From contig CP136068.1 in the NCBI GenBank assembly GCA_032622095.1, positions 51,888,443 to 51,952,442 of the forward strand: a DNA stretch of 64,000 nt. The letters are read 5' to 3'. Within the stretch, counting starts at the first letter, position 1. The number at the start of each line of letters is the position of its first letter. Below the pieces are notes generated by a model. That model was not told where the DNA came from. It was given only the letters and a program-made list of their open reading frames with translations, and ran no database searches. Position numbers and translations under genes: made by a program. Positions 31,058 to 50,949 of the stretch are shown in pieces. The stretch is from Siphonodentalium dalli. Its lineage: Eukaryota > Mollusca > Scaphopoda > Gadilida > Siphonodentaliidae.

Positions 31058-32396
31058 TAGAGCTGAAACGGTTGACCCATTCTTCTAACCGGTTAACCGG
31101 ATTTCAACCGGTTAACCGCTAATTTCTAGCGGACTTCTCTCAAACTAATTATGTCGACATTATGCCATGCTCCAGGGACAAACCTAGGTGAGAAATAGTA
31201 GCTGAAATAAAGACCGTATTCACGGCATTTAACGATATTCAAAAACACGCATTCACTGTTCTTTTGCTGGCTCTTGTGATGGGGAATGAGCAAGTGAAAT
31301 TTGTGAATGGCAGGGAAGGTCGCTTATTTGCCGTGATCAGCATATGTTTGGGCATTTGTAAAACGAGTAAAATAGTATGGGTATTGGTAAAACGAGTAAC
31401 AAAACTATATATTAAAGATCTGTAATATATCATTATCATCATTGGTATATCCTCCAATGCATTATATATATAAAGACAAGAAAGTAATAACTATAGAACA
31501 AAAAGGAAGGTCAGTTAGGTCAGACTCGCAGTCCTATTCAGTATTCAAGCTATTCGTCGGTATCATGATAGCGGACACTAGTGTTGGGAGGTTATATAAT
31601 TTACGTTTCGGTTTCGTTTTTGTTGGTAAGAAAAAACCTGGTTTCGGTTTTAGTATGCAATCACTTAACATATAGCAATTACTGCCAAATTGAGTGTTAA
31701 TTAGTCCCACAGGCACAACCAGTTACAGAGTAGCATGGAGCATCAATTTCCTTGATAAAAGGGAAGATCATTGAAGAAGTTTTGGGTTGCTTCAACTACG
31801 ATTGAATTGATCATATTAGATCACAACAGGGAGGAAGAACGGGAAGAGTGAAGACATTGTGCAGCTGATCTCAATCTTCAAACTTTGTCGACTTCCATAG
31901 TTTTTATAAACCCCACTGTAAAACAGTTTTATATATAGTATGTAGTGGTGTGATTCCAATTTGAATCCATGTTGCTTCGTGCAGTATTAACTATTAAGTT
32001 ACAAAAGCACGCATTGCCACACAACGCCACTTTTACGTTGTCACTTCCTTGTGTGCATTCAGACTTGATACACAGTGACTGCACACGTGCTTTTGTCGGA
32101 AGAAAACTTCAAAGGGTCGGAATTGATTGAAGGTCGCCGACACTTCCAGACAGTTCGAGAATTGCTACTAAGTATCTGATACTACCGCGTGTACCAATTA
32201 ATGCTTGCTTGCACTCTACTATCGGTGACACAGGATTTAGTATTAGTTTTGCATCATTTAACCTAATATTTTGAGGATTATTCACGTTCACATTCAACTG
32301 ACAACGGGATGCGGTTACGTCCGGTTCATTTTTTTCTAACCGGTTACGTCGTTAACCGGATGCTAACCGGTTAACCGTCTAACCGTTTCAGCTCTA
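31058..32396. mobile_element. hAT-like element, TAGAGCTG type (1,339 bp)
   Basis: Terminal inverted repeat TAGAGCTGAAACGGTT and its mirror, then several AACCGGTTAACC boxes near both ends. Flanks CTACTGTC (31,050-31,057) and CTACTGTA (32,397-32,404) match at 7 of 8 bases, an 8-bp target duplication. The interior differs from the two relatives at 37,077 and 39,784. No transposase recognised. Confidence 0.85.
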
Positions 32397-33161: not shown

Positions 33162-33308
33162 TCAATGATGAACTTTGGCATATTCTGGCATTTCATACGT
33201 GACAGCGCCCGGTATGTAGTAACCGATTAGGTTTCTCTTTCCTATACATTCACCAATGTAGAAACAGAAGAGGACATCCAGAGCAATACAGGTGTTCACT
33301 AAAGATTC
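33162..33308 (-). CDS. ATP5MG: ATP synthase subunit g, exon 3 (C-terminus and stop)
   Basis: Minus-strand acceptor TTGTTTTACAG, then 48 codons and TGA (33,162-33,164). It encodes ESLVNTCIALDVLFCFYIGE, then CIGKRNLIGY. This is the single transmembrane helix of subunit g with its G-E-C-I-G (GxxxG) dimerisation motif and the conserved G-K-R. The human counterpart ends within a few residues of IGY. Here about 18 more residues follow (YIPGAVTYEMPEYAKVHH). The exon joins exon 2 in phase 0 at L-T-V-K|E-S, exactly as the conserved LTVKE. Confidence 0.95.
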   Translation of the reverse strand, partial: ESLVNTCIALDVLFCFYIGECIGKRNLIGYYIPGAVTYEMPEYAKVHH

Positions 33309-33572
33309 CTGTAAAACAAAAAAGTAGTATTAAAAAAGTGGAATTCAAAAACTGAATAAAGGTCAATAGCCAAAAGTGGTGATCAATTCAAATCACTCGA
33401 CTTGAACAAATACAATCAATAAAGAATCATGAAATATGTAAATCAGAAACAATAAACTTGATGTTTTGACACCGAAAAGGATGATAATTTGCTGCTCATA
33501 GCACCATTTGGAACATTTCATATGCATTTGTTAATAGTTGGGAATTTCAGTGTGCCGGACAAAAATGGCTGC

Positions 33573-33590
33573 GGGGGGGGGGGGGGGGGG
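33573..33590 (+). repeat. Poly-G run (18 G)
   Basis: Homopolymer within ATP5MG intron 2. Confidence 0.95.
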
Positions 33591-33729
33591 TTATATATGG
33601 TTAGTCAGTTGTACGTGTCACTATATGTGGACATATATAGTCCACTGATTCCAAGTACATGATCTGCAGTCTATTTGGTGTCTGGCACAAATGAAGCTTG
33701 TGTTACAGAACTTATGTGCAAATAATTAT

Positions 33730-34800
33730 TGGCAATATTACACACACTGTCTTACCCGGATACACTGGTGACAGTAACAAATATTACACACAGTCACACA
33801 CTGCATTACCCAGATACACTGGTGACAGTAACAAAAAGTGGTTGCACCATGGGTGCTGGGATACCCCCCATGGTGAAAATTGAAATATGTGCAGGTCGGA
33901 AACTAAATTGTGAAAAAAAATGTGATGAACGAACAAATTACTTGACATTTCTAATGAATGAGAGACGGACATCCAAGCGATTAGGGCCCATCTGGCATTG
34001 GGGATATGTGCTATATAAGCACCATTATTATTATAAATTTTTTCAGATAAAGAGGGATAACTCTTGAACGGAAAATGTGAACGTCAATGAACCCTCTTTT
34101 GAAAGCCTCCTGATGCCAAACCTGCGTATCAAATTTCATCAAGATCCGATAACACATGGTTGAGATTTATGAGCGGACGGACAGAAATCCAACATTTTCA
34201 GACAAACAAAGAGGGATAACTCTTGAATGGAAAATGTGAACAACGTCAATGAACCCTCTTTTGAAAGCCCTCCTGATGACAAACCTGCATACCGAATTTC
34301 ATTGAGATCTGATAACCAATGGTTCAGATATATGAGCAGACTGACACATATAATCCATATTTTGGGATGGGGCCGGGGTATATATATTACACACATTGTA
34401 TTACCTGGACACACTGGTGACAGTAACAAATAATACACACTGTTTTACCCGGACACACTGGTGACAGTAACAAATATTACACACACTGTATTACTCAAGA
34501 CACAATGGTGACAGTAACAAATATTACACACTGTATTAACTGAACACTCTGGTGACAATAACAAATATTACACACACTGTATTACTCGGACACAATGGTG
34601 ACAGTAACAAATATTAGACACTGTATTACCCGGACACACTGGTGACAGTAACAAATATTACACACACTGTATTACTCGGACACAATGGTGACAGTAACAA
34701 ATATTAGACACTGTATTAACCGAACACACTGGTGACAGTAACAAATATTACACACTGTATTACCCGGACACACTGGTGACAGTAACAAATATTACTAGTA
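33730..34800 (+). repeat. 46-bp minisatellite interrupted by an insertion
   Basis: The unit 'ACACTGGTGACAGTAACAAA' plus 'TATTACACACACTGTATTACCCGG' occurs about two times at 33,730-33,831 and about nine to ten times at 34,379-34,800. Units alternate between 44 and 46 bp. The 547-bp segment between the two blocks splits the array at AACAAA. Confidence 0.9.
33832..34378 (+). repeat. Insertion in the minisatellite, with a 165-bp dimer
   Basis: Starts AAGTGGTTGCACCATGGGTG. From 34,041 two units of about 165 bp repeat 'AGAGGGATAACTCTTGAA' and 'CAATGAACCCTCTTTTGAAA', then 'GATCNGATAACNNATGGTT'. Resembles other mollusc-type 'ATAACTC' repeats. No protein recognised. Confidence 0.7.
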
Positions 34801-34836
34801 TACACACTATTACCTGGACAATACTTATAAACAAGC

Positions 34837-34905
34837 CAAACGAGAGGCCGATCACGATCGGCAGATGTTTAACCCATACCTTGGCGATAACGATTAGCTA
34901 TTTTC
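34837..34905 (+). repeat. Dispersed repeat end, paired with 8,440-8,600
   Basis: AAACGAGAGGCCGATCACGA followed by TCGGCAGATGTTTAACCCAT; see the minus-strand copy in the AKAP9-like intron. It abuts the TTAA-type MITE at 34,949. Confidence 0.55.
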
Positions 34906-34948
34906 ATAAATCCTTACACCAACCTTTTCAACAATTCACATCTTACTA

Positions 34949-35371
34949 TTAAAGCTACTCGATCCGATTAAGCACCCCTCAGTTATGTTTTATTTGGCTT
35001 CGGGGGTAAAAAATATTTTATTCAAATCGAGGAACCCATTCCTCAAAGCTCAGAATAAGCAGATATCAATTTTTAAAATCTATTATCTTTAACCACCTGG
35101 CATATTTATTGGCCGTATGAAAGTTGATGAAGATGGATAACTATAAAATCAAGTGTTTTTTTTGTGTCAGATATATGACAAAGTAGCAAAATTTCATTGT
35201 ACAAAATGTTGATAAATAACTGATTTTGGGCAATTTTATACTAGTGGACTGTGGTTAGCATTATTTTTGGGCAATTAATTGACTCTGATAACAGAAGCGG
35301 AATTTCAAAAAAACTGTTGTTGTAGGAATCTGATGATATGGGGACCATCAAATCGGATTGAGTACCTTTAA
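34949..35371 (+). mobile_element. TTAA-type MITE, copy B (423 bp)
   Basis: Ends TTAAAGCTACTCGATCCGAT and, mirrored, TTAAAGGTACTCAATCCGAT, so TTAA occurs at both borders. The interior is the reverse complement of copy A at 18,664-19,105. Probably piggyBac-type, non-autonomous. Confidence 0.8.
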
Positions 35372-36324
35372 GTTCACAAGTGGCATAAGACTTATTGGGC
35401 ACCGTCCATATGGATATGGCATTTGATTCCAACCTATTAAGTCAGTTTAAAATAGATATATAGTCTTATAGAGCTCAGTCCATAGTCAGGCAGAAGAACC
35501 ATACATAACAGTTAAAGATAAACTATTTTAAAAATTTCGTAAAATATGATTGATAATGATTGGATATAACATACTTTAATGCATAATTATGAGATAACTA
35601 GAGGTCACCAGGGATATGAGATTGAAGATACCGGTATTAGATTTATTACATTGGATAGCATACTGTATGTCTGGAATGGGTGGGTTAATTTTGATAATAT
35701 TTTAAAGCAATTAAACCAAATGACCCTCTCTGTACAGGTTAGGGGTGTGTTATCATAAACTATGACTTGAAATATAATATAATCAATGACAAATATTTGA
35801 GTTATTAAATGAGATAGCAAGGGGTTGATCTTAATCACACTAATGAACTGATCAAAATAGTCTATAATTGCATGTATATGGATTTAGAAGCCCACACAAT
35901 AAGTCAGTCTCAAGAATACAAACAACATAATTATTATCCTGCACCCCAAATGCAATAGAGGGAATTTCAAAATAAGACATTTCCTCTAATGTTTTTAGAA
36001 ATCCTTATTGAACCTGGCTCAAAGTGAAAGATATAATTTAATATCTGCCTATCAGATATCATGTGTCTATGGAATGGGTTAATATTAATCCCAAAATTCA
36101 TGCAAGACCAGAGAGCTATGTTGGAGTTGATAAATCCTGAGAAGTCACTGTCCACACACTATGGAAATTCAATAAACAACAGATAGCTATTAAAGTGCAG
36201 CAGTGAGTATCAGATTTCATTACCAGGTATCAATAATAGAGATTATCTCTAGTCTCTCTTTACTGATACCTCAGTTGGAAGCTGCCAGTTATTTCTTGTA
36301 AGCAAATCTCAAATCTGTTCAATT

Positions 36325-36885
36325 CTTAGTTAAAAGGGGCCATAATTCTGGTATAAAAAACAGGATCTGACACATATTCAAACTAGATCTGTATTTTGAG
36401 TTGATAAACTCGCATACCAAATTTGGTTCTTATCAGTTGAAAAATGGTTGATTTATCAAAATATGCAGAAATTCTATAACAAAGGGCCATAACTCCTTTA
36501 AAAAATATCGGATCAAACCCATATTCGAACTCGATTTGTATTTTGGTCCGAGAAACTTGCATACCAAATTTGATTCTGAACAGATAATTTTTTTTTGAGT
36601 TATGGTAGCATGCATGAATTCTAAGTCGAAAAAGGGCCATTTATAACTCCGTAATAAAAAACTCGGATCGAACCCATATTCGAACTCGATCTGTCTTTTA
36701 TGCTGAGAAATTCAATTACAAAATTTGGTTCCGATCAGATATAAAATGTTTGAGTTATCGCACCATGCGTAAAGTGTCTACAGACAGACAGCCAGCCAGA
36801 CAGACAGACGGACGGACTAACGACGAGTGGTCAATCCGGACAACGACACTATGTTTACCATACTATGGTATGGGTAAACATAAAA
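36325..36885 (-). repeat. Mollusc-type 'GGGCCATAACTCC' tandem array
   Basis: Three to four diverged units of about 150-165 bp with 'AAAGGGGCCATAATTC', 'GGATCNNACCCATATTCGAA', 'CATACCAAATTTGGTTC' and 'AAATNNTTGAGTTATNG'. Ends with a CAGACAGACGGACGG run and ATGTTTACCATACTATGG, reverse-orientation relative to 1,960-2,440. Open frames on the minus strand here are repeat-derived. Confidence 0.75.
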
Positions 36886-36992
36886 AGCCAGAGAAGTATT
36901 TGTTTTGTTTTCTGCTCATTTTATAGTAGATTAACTCACAGCCATAAAACTGGTATCTAGTAATGTACTAGTACCGTACATTAACTTTAGGC

Positions 36993-38562
36993 CTGAATGT
37001 TACCAACTTACCTTTACGGTTAGTGCAGAATGAAAGAATGTTACCAATATACCTTTACGGTTATGGCTGAATGTTGTAGTGCTGAAACGGTTGACCTATT
37101 TTTGTAGCCGGTTAACCGCGACGTGTAACCGGATCATAACCGGATATCCGCTATTTTCAACCTATGACTTTACAGCCATTATTTACACCATAATATGTAC
37201 CAATATATCATCACAATTTGATTTATTAACTGTATGGCGAACTCATGTAATGTTTACACAGACATAGCTTGTATTAAATGAATGTAAATCACCAAACACG
37301 AACGGTAATAAGCCATGTGTTGACAACTTGACAGGTGACACAGTCAACTAAAACACTCAGTGTTTATAAATAGACGCGTCATGCTTGACCTGTTTGTATT
37401 GCAGTCGCAACTGCTGCCCGACTTTTTGTCATTCTCGTTTGGGAAGAATATTGTGTGACCTATATATATTTTCGTACATGCAAATCGTGGAAGTTTTTTA
37501 TTGTCAGTATAGCGATTGCGCGACTGGGCGAATATTAGGTCATGCGACTCAGGTATTCTTCAGCGATTTGAGATGCATAGGATGACCAACGGCAGATAAA
37601 CACAATTATGAAGTTTCATGAACTATGTAGTTAACAAATGCAACCTGCTGAAAACGGTGTTTTCTGTTAGAACACAATCAAATGCTGATAATTAATCATT
37701 GGGACGCAAACAAGTCCAACTGCATGGCAACACCACTTCGATGCGAGTTCATTGGAACTTCGTCCAATGAGATTACTCAAACTCAGTAATGTTAGAAGAT
37801 TAAACCATGCGTACGTAAATAGGATTAATTCTACAGATTTCGCATTTTGCGAATTTCTTTTTGTTATCGGAAATGCGCCCAGACATCTGATTTATGCATT
37901 TCTTGAGTATCCATGATACCGTCTACATGTAGTGAGTCGTAGCGTAGATGTCAAATGACCAGGCTGTACTCCATTGAAAATGATTGCATTGATCTTTGCC
38001 AACGACTCAGTGGTGTCAGTGCACATGTTTTACTGGACATTGGAACATCAAAGATGATGGCATGCATCTTCGATGTTTAGCCGACAAAGCCAGACTACTG
38101 GTATGTAACTTGTCATTCATGGAAGACTTTTTTTTATCTCGCACCAGATTTTGACTTTTAATACACGTAATTTCGACTATACTCCTCAGAGTGATAATGA
38201 TTGTAGCAAAATTGATAAAGTACACGTTGTTTAAAACCTACTGTTATCAGTCTCGTGCTGATTAAGAGCATAATATGTTAGTTTTTGTCGTTGGAATCGC
38301 GTGTGTGCAATACATAGCGGTTAACCGGTTGATAGTAGTTCAACCGGTTGTCGACAGTAGCCGGTTGTCAACTGAATATCCGTTTCAGCACTAGAATGTT
38401 ACCGATTTACCTTTACAGTTACAGCTGAATGTTACCAACTTACCTTTACGGTTAGACCGTTAGGGCTGAATGTTACCAACTTACCTTTACAGTTAGACTG
38501 TTACCTAGGGCTGTATGTTATCAACTTAGCTTTACGATTATGGATGGATGTCATCAACTTAC
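36993..38562 (-). repeat. Minisatellite made of ATP5MG exon-2 donor copies
   Basis: Read on the minus strand, the authentic junction ACCGTAAAG|GTAAGTTG at 38,563/38,562 is followed by six imperfect copies of the same junction plus 'GGTAACATTCAGCC'. Junctions fall at 38,530, 38,485, 38,444, 38,411, 37,053 and 37,012. Their first intron bases are CTAAGT, GTAAGT, GTAAGT, GTAAAT, GTATAT and GTAAGT. Units are 33-45 bp. A hAT-like element (37,077-38,393) splits the array between the fourth and fifth copies. The repeat unit includes true exon sequence, so it arose from the splice site itself or converged with it. Confidence 0.85.
37077..38393. mobile_element. hAT-like element, TAGTGCTG type (1,317 bp)
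   Basis: Ends TAGTGCTGAAACGGTTGACC and mirrored TAGTGCTGAAACGGATATTC, with CCGGTT boxes inside both ends. Flanks GAATGTTG and GAATGTTA match at 7 of 8 bases (8-bp target duplication). Colinear with the element at 39,784-42,134 once that copy's nested insertion is removed. No transposase frame recognised. Confidence 0.9.
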
Positions 38563-38723
38563 CTTTACGGTTAACGTCTTCCATTTTCCTGTTTTGGCTC
38601 CTGCTACAATATTGCCAATACGCTTCTGTATTTCTGGGATCTCAGAAGGTGCTGGTGGGCGCAGCTCTACCTTTGCATATTTCCAAAATGTCTGCAGACG
38701 TGGCTTTGAGAATGCGAAAGTCC
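38563..38723 (-). CDS. ATP5MG: ATP synthase subunit g, exon 2
   Basis: Bounded on the minus strand by GTCTCTTTCAG and GTAAGT. It begins with two bases of an Arg codon and ends in phase 0. It encodes 53 residues: TFAFSKPRLQTFWKYAKVEL, then RPPAPSEIPEIQKRIGNI, then AGAKTGKWKTLTVK. The human protein has SKPRLATFWYYAKVELVPPT and an A-x-T-G-x-F...LTVKE stretch at the same places, so this is the matrix-side amphipathic part of subunit g. Plus-strand frames over the same place are shadows. Confidence 0.97.
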
Positions 38724-39204
38724 CTGAAAGAGACAATTGTTGAAGTGAGCAAGCATGTAGCTCTCTCGTGAGACATTACATTGTCAGTATTGGTAATAGA
38801 CTATAGTCATGTTGTCTGTCTGGCTAATGGCTATGGTACCATGAACAGCAAATGAAAAAGCCTCTTATATCAGCACGCTCAGTGATTACCAGAAATTGAT
38901 TACCGTAAACACTCTGAAATGAAGGGTTTCAAGGGAACACTAACATTCATCTCGTAAAAACATATTATGTTTGTGTCCCGGCATGATTTTTCCAGGGTTT
39001 TCAAGGAGTGAATATGGTGACAGGGTGTAAAAGGTTTTTTAAGGGCCATTGACCCCTAGTCTCTATGATGTGATTCTTAGTTTGACATTCACCGACAAAG
39101 CATTACTAAGGACTGTGTAGACAACTGCCCATATGACATCACTGACATGTGTTACTGATCCAAGTTTTAATCAGGCATCAAGTGCTTGATTCTTTGCAAC
39201 CTGT

Positions 39205-39595: not shown

Positions 39596-40018
39596 CTCAT
39601 GAGCTATCCACTCCTCACGTTCAACGTCAGTGTCGGTGGTCGCCCTTCAGCCTTACTTGGGGGGAAAAGGGGGTTGAGCTTGGTGTGTCACTCAGTGGCC
39701 GTTTTGCGCCCAAATACAAGCTCATGGTTGGGGAGGGGAACATTAATCTGGGAACACCGATCGATCTTTAATGACTTTAAAAGTTGTGCTGAAATGGTTG
39801 ACCTATTTTTGTAGCTGGTTAACCGCGATGTGTAACTGGATCATAACCGAATATGCACTATTTTAAACCTATGACTTTACACTCATTATTGTTATTTACA
39901 CCATAATATGTACCAATTTATCATCGTAATTTGATTTATTAACTGTATGGCAAACTCACGTAATGTTTACACAGAGAGCTTATATATTAAACGAATATAA
40001 TCACCAAACATGAATGGT

Positions 40019-41068
40019 AACAAGAGCATCGCTAGGATGTGGCAAAATACCCCCTTTAGCCATTTCGAATTGTACTACCACAAAATAAATGAAAGGTCAG
40101 CTGACCGCCGCAGCCTGACCACAGTGTCCTCCGACAACGTGGCAAGTCGATGCCGCTTTGTTAAAGAAATTTAAATTTTTTTTTTAATTTTCTATGTCGA
40201 AAAGGGGTTAAAAACAAAACAAATTATAACTCCTTTAAAAACTAAAAAAAATTCCGTCATCTATATACATGTTGCACATCTCCAATATGTGGCTATATTC
40301 TGAATTTTCAAATATCTACGATCAAAACTGTAGGAGGAGTTGATTACACCATGAAGGTACCCTCATACAGAAAATTCTAAAAAATGTTGAAATTTTTAAG
40401 TCGAAAAGGGTTAATAACTTCGTCAAAAAATTATTTTTCCATCATCTATATACATATTGCACATCTTCAATATATGGGCAACAATATTCTGAAGTTTCAA
40501 ATCTCTGGGATGAAATCTGTAGGAGGAAATGATTACACCATGAAGGTACTCAAAAATGTGACGGACGGACGAATAGACAGAGCCCGTTTCTATAGTCCCC
40601 CTTTTCTTTCAGAAAGTCGGGGGGACAAATAATAATTTGAGCTTAAAAAGAATGTCTGATATACCCCTAATTTCAATGACAAAATGCGGTCAAATTAATT
40701 AATGGCTGTAATTACTCATGTGAAAATAATTGGACAGAAACTATATTCGAACTTGGCTTGTACTTTTAGTTGTGAAACACATACAAGCTTTGGTTCAGAT
40801 AAAATAATCCAACTGGAGTTATCGGTCAGAAACCGAAATGTTATGAAATCGGTCAAATTCTAAGTAGAAAAAGGGCCGTAACTCATGTGAAAATAATCGG
40901 ACGAAACCCATATTCGAACTTGGCTTGTATCTTTAGCTGGGAAATACACATACTAGTACCAATGTTGGTTCAGATAAAATAATCCAAACTGGAGTTATCG
41001 ATCGGAAACCAAACATTTTAACGGACGGACAAACTGACGGACAGACAGATGGATAGACAAAAGGGCGT
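40019..41068 (+). mobile_element. Repeat nested in the hAT-like element
   Basis: Interrupts the hAT-like sequence between GGTAA and AAAGCCATGTG, with TAA at both joints. It starts CAAGAGCATCGCTAGG, the family seen at 1-127, and continues after 40,677 with two units of 'AAAAAGGGCCGTAACTCATG' type. It ends in ACGGACGGACAAACTGACGG and AAAAGGGCGTTTAA. Confidence 0.7.
40089..40631 (+). repeat. Third-level insertion (about 545 bp)
   Basis: Absent from the related copy at 1-127, where AAATAAG joins directly to the ACTTTGAGCTT side. Flanked by AAATAA-like sequence at both joints. Contains two 'TCGAAAAGGGTTAA' units and ends in a hairpin AGTCCCCC...GGGGGGAC. Confidence 0.6.
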
Positions 41069-42139
41069 TTAAAAAGCCATGTGTTGACAACTTGACAGAT
41101 GACACAGTGAACTAAAACTTGCAGTGTTTATAAAGACGTGTCATGCTTCAAGATGCTTGATTTGTTTGTATTGCAGTCATGACTACCCGACGTACATTTA
41201 TTGCTCTCGTTTGGGAAGAATATTGCGGGAACATGCAAATAGCGGCAGCTTTTTATTGTCATAAAAGCTATTGCGGGACAGGGCGCCGTTGAGGGCGAAT
41301 ATTACGTCATGTGATTCAGGTATTCTAACTACTGGGTGTTCTTCAGCAATTTGAGATGCATAGGATGACTGACGACAGAAAAACATAATTATGAAGTTTC
41401 GTGAACTTTATGTAGTTAACAAATGAAAATTTTTAAATCAGCTAAACCTGCTGAAAAAAGTGTTTTCTGTTAGAACACAATCAAATGCTGGAGTCCGACT
41501 GCATGGAAACACCACTTCAATACAAGTTCATTTGAACTTCATCCACTGAGATAACTCAAACTCAGTCATGTTAAAAGTACAGACCATGCATATGTAAACA
41601 GGGTTCTACAGAGTTTGCATTCTGCGAATTTCTTTTTGTTTTCTGAAATGTACCCAGACATCTGATTTGTGCATTTCTTGAATATCCATGACACCGTCTA
41701 CTAGTAGTGGAGTCGGAGAGTAGATGTCAAATGACCAGGCCATACTGTATTGAAAACGATTGCATTGATCTTTGTCTCAGAGCATGTGTTTTACCGGACA
41801 TCGGAACATCAAAGATGATGTCATGCATCTTTGATGTTAAGCCACCAAAGCCAGACTATGTAACTTGCCATTCATGGAAGACTTTTGATCTTGCACCAGA
41901 TTTGGACTTTTAATACACGTAATTTAGACTGTATACCCCTCTGAGTGATAAAGTTTGTAGCAAAATTGATAAAGTACACGTGTTTAAAAATAGAAGCTAC
42001 TGTTATCAGTCTCGTGCTGATAAAGGACCTGAATACGTTAGTTTTTGTCGTTGGCATCACGTGGGTGGATTACATAGCAGTTAACCGGTTGCAGACGTTA
42101 GCCAGTTGTCATCCGGATAACCGTTTCAGCACTATTTAT

Positions 42140-50885: not shown

Positions 50886-50949
50886 TTAGAGCTAGATCTG
50901 TGCTTTTACCAGCCAACTTGACAAGCTTGTTGCCTGCTGCACTCGCCAT
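50886..50949 (-). CDS. ATP5MG: ATP synthase subunit g, exon 1 (start codon)
   Basis: Minus-strand ATG at 50,949-50,947. It encodes M-A-S-A-A-G-N-K-L-V-K-L-A-G-K-S-T-D-L-A-L and then one base, with donor CTAA|GTAAGA. The single base pairs with the two first bases of exon 2 to give Arg. The N-terminus aligns with MAQFVRNLVEKTPALVNAAV of human ATP5MG by length and pattern. The three exons give 123 residues against 103 in human, mainly because of the C-terminal extension. Subunit g sits in the membrane part of mitochondrial complex V and helps dimerise it. An upstream in-frame ATG at 51,030 has no stop before it, but the MASAAG start fits family length. Confidence 0.93.

Follow-up and report, generated by a model that had tools for sequence, protein, structure and literature searches.

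The 64,000-nucleotide stretch of Siphonodentalium dalli DNA analysed here, referred to below as the window, belongs to an assembly of 2.23 Gb in nine contigs and carries on its minus strand a gene that sequence matches support as a single-copy ATP5MG, encoding ATP synthase subunit g. The first-pass annotation had named the gene so, and the matches bear this out: exons 2 and 3 pass the curated PF04718 cut-off of 25 bits, with 31.3 and 31.8 bits, as the sole two matches in the genome, and subunit g chains in the PDB match the gene with a best E of 2.3e-27. A possible exon 1 is a weak candidate: with it included, the top PDB score of 98.3 bits goes up to no more than 100.8. The membrane-helix part of the protein is presumably encoded by exon 3. 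The features of the locus, together with exon-anchored donor arrays elsewhere in the genome, are collected in Table 1.

Table 1. Features of the ATP5MG locus (window positions) and exon-anchored donor arrays at other loci (contig coordinates). A slash marks the exon-intron boundary; energies are for pairing with the U1 5' end.
Feature	Position	Strand	Description
Exon 1, weak candidate	50886-50949	minus	MASAAGNKLVKLAGKSTDLAL then GTAAGA; from a pattern scan
Exon 2	38563-38723	minus	161 nt; ends ACC GTA AAG/GTAAGT; PF04718 and PDB subunit g
Intron 2	33309-38562	minus	5,254 nt; contains the entire array
Exon 3, coding part with stop	33162-33308	minus	PF04718; start at 33308 preceded by TTTTACAG
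True exon-2 junction	38546-38573	minus	register of 28 nt (11 exonic, 17 intronic); donor +1 at 38562
Junction copy 2	38513-38540	minus	donor position 38529; AAG/CTAAGT, GT lost; -3.9 kcal/mol
Junction copy 3	38468-38495	minus	donor 38484; AAG/GTAAGT; -10.6 kcal/mol
Junction copy 4	38427-38454	minus	donor 38443; AAG/GTAAGT; -10.6 kcal/mol
Junction copy 5	38394-38421	minus	donor 38410; AAG/GTAAAT; -6.8 kcal/mol
Junction copy 6	37036-37063	minus	donor 37052; AAG/GTATAT; -5.7 kcal/mol
Junction copy 7	36995-37022	minus	donor 37011; AAG/GTAAGT; -10.6 kcal/mol
hAT-type element	37077-38393		1,317 bp; ends TAGTGCTGAAACGG / CCGTTTCAGCACTA
L033			LEM domain; Pfam above cut-off
L057	C1:65903841-65906930	reverse	USP47_C; Pfam above cut-off
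L072			TSP_1 (TSP1); Pfam above cut-off
L075			amino-acid permease (SLC7); Pfam below cut-off; PDB amino-acid transporters, 3.4e-6
L081			TCP-1 (TCP1-zeta); Pfam below cut-off; PDB TCP-1 zeta, 5.3e-22
L082			MRP-S22 (MRPS22); Pfam above cut-off; match ends 12 residues short
L088			signal peptide peptidase (SPP); Pfam above cut-off
L089			second, near-identical signal peptide peptidase locus; Pfam above cut-off
L090	C7:173125986-173126606		STRAD alpha; PDB E 2.7e-7; no Pfam match

Downstream of exon 2, the intron repeats the junction at which the exon ends. Reading the minus strand over 36700-39200 confirmed that six extra copies are present, as first described, with three carrying GTAAGT and one GTAAAT; the remaining two read GTATAT and CTAAGT. 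Each extra copy is identical to the true junction at between 22 and 25 of 28 nt, and a 27-base unit pattern allowing up to 3 mismatches has 6 matches in the window (one of them the true junction itself, with the copy at 38529 missed), where 0.00 are expected from 100 shuffles. The copies fall into two blocks, one made up of the true junction and four extra copies at 38573-38394 and the other of two further copies at 37063-36995, with successive donors spaced by 33, 45, 41, 33, 1358 (across an insert) and 41 nt.

This arrangement departs from the earlier description of one minisatellite tract over 36993-38562, since an inserted element of 1,317 bp separates the first four extra copies from the last two and rules out a continuous tract. 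Inverted ends and an 8-bp target duplication are the features that we take to mark hAT-type elements, and by its anatomy the insert appears to be one of them: it has inverted ends, and its flanks on the minus strand, TAACATTC and CAACATTC, form an 8-bp target duplication matching at 7 of 8 positions, as in hAT-type non-autonomous DNA transposons. One copy of the duplication is included in the end of junction copy 5. The element has at least 43 matches in the genome (from the 40 of 1,175 candidates that were scored), the closest of these besides itself being 97% identical. Both ends were found by pattern in 17 of the 20 element loci looked at, the ATP5MG copy included, and three loci were left unparsed; at the 16 other parsed loci the 8-bp duplication is exact in 15 and has 3 mismatches in one. 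Two of the element loci, L017 and L019, have the same flanks and represent one insertion event. Subtracting the insert and its 8-bp duplication from the interrupted spacing leaves 33 nt, a spacing found elsewhere in the array, and the array is therefore older than the insertion. An older second copy of the same family lies upstream of exon 2 at 39786-40024 and 41070-42134, in pieces 86% and 75% identical that are separated by roughly 1 kb of unrelated sequence. Beyond exon 3, at 31058-31099, a fragment of an hAT-type end is present (42 bp, 88%).

Exon 2 is the likely source of the array unit. The exonic 11 nt of the unit end in ACC GTA AAG, encoding T-V-K, which occurs in two of the three PDB chains shown (the third has SVR), which points to the exon as the source. 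The derivation from the exon, proposed on first reading, is also borne out by genome searches, in which an 18-base unit core at 0 or 1 mismatch occurs at four places in 2.23 Gb, all of them at the ATP5MG array, and a 207-bp query of exon and array DNA matches this locus only. Copy 2, which adjoins the exon, has the true junction's base at +9, where the other copies differ; a base shared by the nearest copy is what outward growth of the array would be expected to leave. Tandem repeats are plentiful in the window and the genome and a transposon is present within the array, which might suggest that the unit is instead a dispersed satellite or transposon sequence resembling the exon junction by chance. 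However, with up to 2 mismatches the core is rarer than its reversed pattern (44 genome places compared with 172), and neither the unit core at 0-1 mismatch nor the 207-bp query leads to any other locus, so that a dispersed source is ruled out at the sensitivity of these searches and is, in our estimate, extremely improbable. No retrocopy preserving a spliced decoy form was seen, with the joined protein leading to two exon places and the exon and array DNA to one locus.

Splicing at a copy in place of the true donor would extend the transcript into intron sequence whose first in-frame codons, as stated in the first-pass annotation and confirmed by reading, are GTA AGT TGA. The stop lies two codons past exon 2 and ahead of exon 3, in support of the further claim that a decoy product would end before the membrane helix. 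With splicing at a GT-intact decoy, the transcript would gain between 78 and 1,551 nt, and the stop would precede the new junction by 69 nt or more; both minimum values, 78 nt gained and 69 nt from stop to junction, belong to the nearest AAG/GTAAGT decoy, at 38484. A stop that far before a junction leads to mRNA decay by the usual rule, and decoy mRNAs should therefore decay. The three intact extra donors and the true donor pair equally well with the U1 5' end, the sequence of which is confirmed by a U1 gene (L065) of the same genome. With three decoys equal to the true donor, sequence strength by itself gives the true site no protection. The U1 snRNA genes of this genome form a regular tandem array at C1:103842444-103879156, in steps of about 2,150 bp. 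Recursive splicing through AAAG/GTAAGT was considered and set aside, the unit being without a pyrimidine tract before AG.

Minisatellite copy number varies between individuals, and if the ATP5MG copies were measurably used, unproductive splicing could lower ATP5MG output and array length could tune expression. The equal U1 pairing of three extra donors is consistent with such use, as is a nearest strong decoy whose stop is far enough from its junction for decay by the rule above. In human IFI6, moreover, two repeat units serve as donors, as outlined in PMC4526556. Two of these points also count against the explanation that we prefer below, in which the copies are seldom used: the silence of decoys that equal the true donor is not explained by strength, and the IFI6 copies are used (PMC4526556). 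On the other hand, three of the six extra donors at ATP5MG are damaged, nothing connects copy number with expression, and the donor positions are no more conserved than other positions of the unit when judged against the consensus. On this evidence we think it unlikely that decoy use regulates the gene.

That last comparison was made over the six extra copies. Measured against the unit consensus, donor positions -3 to +6 are changed in 4 of 54 cells and the rest in 6 of 114 (Fisher p 0.73). With the true junction as the reference, 4 of 54 donor cells and 21 of 114 others are changed, and donor positions that are less changed than the rest count against the preferred explanation; much of this gap, however, comes from +9, +11 and +16, at which most copies differ jointly from the true junction. 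In the USP47-like array described below, 2 of 99 donor cells and 9 of 352 others are changed. With change rates similar against the consensus, and samples small, the array donors give no firm sign of selection either to keep or to erase them. The same numbers bear on the idea that downstream donor-like sites help the gene, with extra U1 binding strengthening the definition of exon 2 or shielding intronic polyadenylation signals. Intron 2 does hold three perfect U1 sites and six AATAAA motifs, but donor mutations are not depleted relative to the consensus, a distance of more than 1.5 kb separates two of the six extra copies from the exon, and we regard a helping role as very improbable.

Donor arrays at other loci were sought with a pattern of three perfect donors spaced 32-62 nt apart, using the words AGGTAAGT and AAGGTAAGT with the reversed words as comparison. 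The pattern occurs at 2,254 places for AGGTAAGT and 2,478 for its reverse, and at 131 places for AAGGTAAGT and 376 for its reverse, where places overlap within arrays. As single words, AAGGTAAGT occurs 15,062 times and its reverse 52,572 times, and the array places per word are alike for the donor-like word (131/15,062) and the reversed one (376/52,572). An excess of donor arrays as such is thus not seen in place counts, and a by-eye count of separate clusters in the first 84.8 Mb of C1, among the places listed, gave 9 compared with 11 for the reversed word. By eye, among the matches listed, roughly the first hundred, there are at least 16 distinct AGGTAAGT arrays, all on C1, and at least 21 distinct AAGGTAAGT arrays, on C1 to C7, making at least 35 distinct arrays over both words with two in common. 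Much of the listed AGGTAAGT places lie in a region of about 67 kb at C1:231991190-232058398 with many AGGTAAGT units in 52-bp steps. Two loci about 3.7 Mb apart, L049 and L050 (C1:24.34 and 28.09 Mb), have near-identical flanks and the same AGGTAAGT array, and related units seem to be present in L046, L047 and L062.

Exon-anchored arrays recur in this genome. Among the 34 arrays examined (all but the one at C1:232.0 Mb), nine have a frame that enters the first copies and shows homology extending up to the end of the exon or close to it (Table 1), and the arrangement is therefore not special to ATP5MG. Frames of 27 of the 34 were searched against Pfam, those of L047, L050, L062, L074, L078, L085 and L087 being left out. 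Exon-like frames at L038, L046, L049, L051, L052, L073, L080, L083 and L084 had no Pfam support, and L083 had no PDB match either; L071, L076, L077, L079, L086 and L103-L106 had only Pfam matches below the cut-off. The frame of L106 resembles what we take to be a tyrosine-phosphatase signature, and it had no PDB match. In a simple match run, the exon part of the unit spans 15 to 47 nt in the exon-anchored arrays, the upper end probably being too high, and 11 nt in ATP5MG. ATP5MG is itself absent from both array lists, its perfect donors lying too far apart for the patterns, and since it escapes both patterns, the class must be larger than counted. In the array at L057, some ten more units of 41 bp, nearly identical to one another, come after a USP47-like exon; about 33 of the 41 bp copy the exon end, and CAG/GTAAGT is kept in most units. 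In the STRAD alpha array, L090, the first perfect copy comes after imperfect ones, the unit is 42 bp and the frame is open across the copies covered by the analysis, so that decoy donors could add codons there as in IFI6.

Two sets of controls bear on whether such arrays form preferentially at donors. For the reversed words, twelve regions from 11 clusters gave 18 frames, all of which were searched (two regions were without frames), and an exon-like match was found in 0 of 18. One frame reading through the repeat lay just above the cut-off of a bacteriocin family (PF08109, 22.1 vs 22 bits) with a match of 9 residues and E 1.6e-4; we take this match for chance, although a strict reading of the cut-off makes the control 1 of 11 and not 0. 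For single AAGGTAAGT sites, all from the first 9.6 Mb of C1, no Pfam match was found in 20 frames from 15 of the 20 sites. With these controls set at 0, 7 of 20 arrays compared with 0 of 20 single sites gives a Fisher p of 0.008, in an uneven test where three of the seven rest on PDB searches and the controls were without them; counting only arrays above the Pfam cut-off, 4 of 20 compared with 0 of 20, again with controls set at 0, gives p 0.11. A broader proposal would hold that junction minisatellites are seeded genome-wide at the 3' ends of working exons, preferentially at transcribed donors, with position deciding in favour of the first donor. ATP5MG, MRPS22, TCP1-zeta and USP47 would then each carry a train of near-identical donors. 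We consider this proposal, with all its parts, possible but doubtful.

The ATP5MG array is probably best explained as a tolerated tandem duplication with seldom-used decoys, one of a recurrent class in this genome. A tandem duplication would have straddled the exon-2 donor, taking in 11 exonic nt and 17 or more intronic nt, and the duplicated junction would have expanded into a small minisatellite within intron 2, later split by the hAT-type insertion. The extra donors would be by-products of duplication. Exon 2 would still be spliced from its own first donor with the copies seldom used, and any use of a decoy would bring the stop two codons past exon 2 and transcript decay. The array may be tolerated since the first donor retains its exon context and is used, and would in that case be neutral.

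The ATP5MG array itself is most likely harmless, and it is of more interest as one of several in the genome than alone. How one donor is chosen among identical neighbours has been studied in artificial constructs. Here, one genome offers unrelated exons with trains of equal donors as natural tests of splice-site choice, and junction reads over these loci would reveal whether position alone decides which donor is used. If the decoys are used, unproductive splicing of this housekeeping gene would depend on the length of its array. At the level of titles and abstract openings, with few subscription journals covered, the literature gave no account of such arrays across many genes of one genome.

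Three known systems can be compared with the locus. In the Rogers model as outlined in PMC4974935, an intron is gained through tandem duplication of a segment bearing AG/GT, and the ATP5MG array likewise suggests tandem duplication of such a segment. In that model, however, the copies become both ends of a new intron within an exon, whereas the ATP5MG copies lie inside the existing intron 2, the acceptor of which is at exon 3. Genes in human segmental duplications have variable tandem repeats at exon-intron boundaries (PMC2812944, in outline), and these resemble the ATP5MG array in being minisatellite-sized repeats across such boundaries that are able to alter splicing. They belong to recent primate paralogs with transcript evidence, whereas ATP5MG is a single-copy housekeeping gene described from its DNA.

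The human IFI6 (6-16) minisatellite provides a precedent for a donor minisatellite of the ATP5MG type. Its repeat unit is 12 bp, and use of a later donor adds in-frame codons. At both loci an exon has a repeat at its donor end, and this repeat provides additional donors further downstream; the ATP5MG array begins at a real exon's donor, which it repeats. They differ in that the downstream IFI6 units are used, with two of them acting as donors to give three mRNAs according to the outline in PMC4526556, whereas the ATP5MG array is known from sequence alone. Unlike IFI6, ATP5MG has half of its extra donors damaged and its array split by a transposon. Because GTA AGT TGA ends the frame two codons past exon 2, ATP5MG is IFI6-like at most in its supply of donors.
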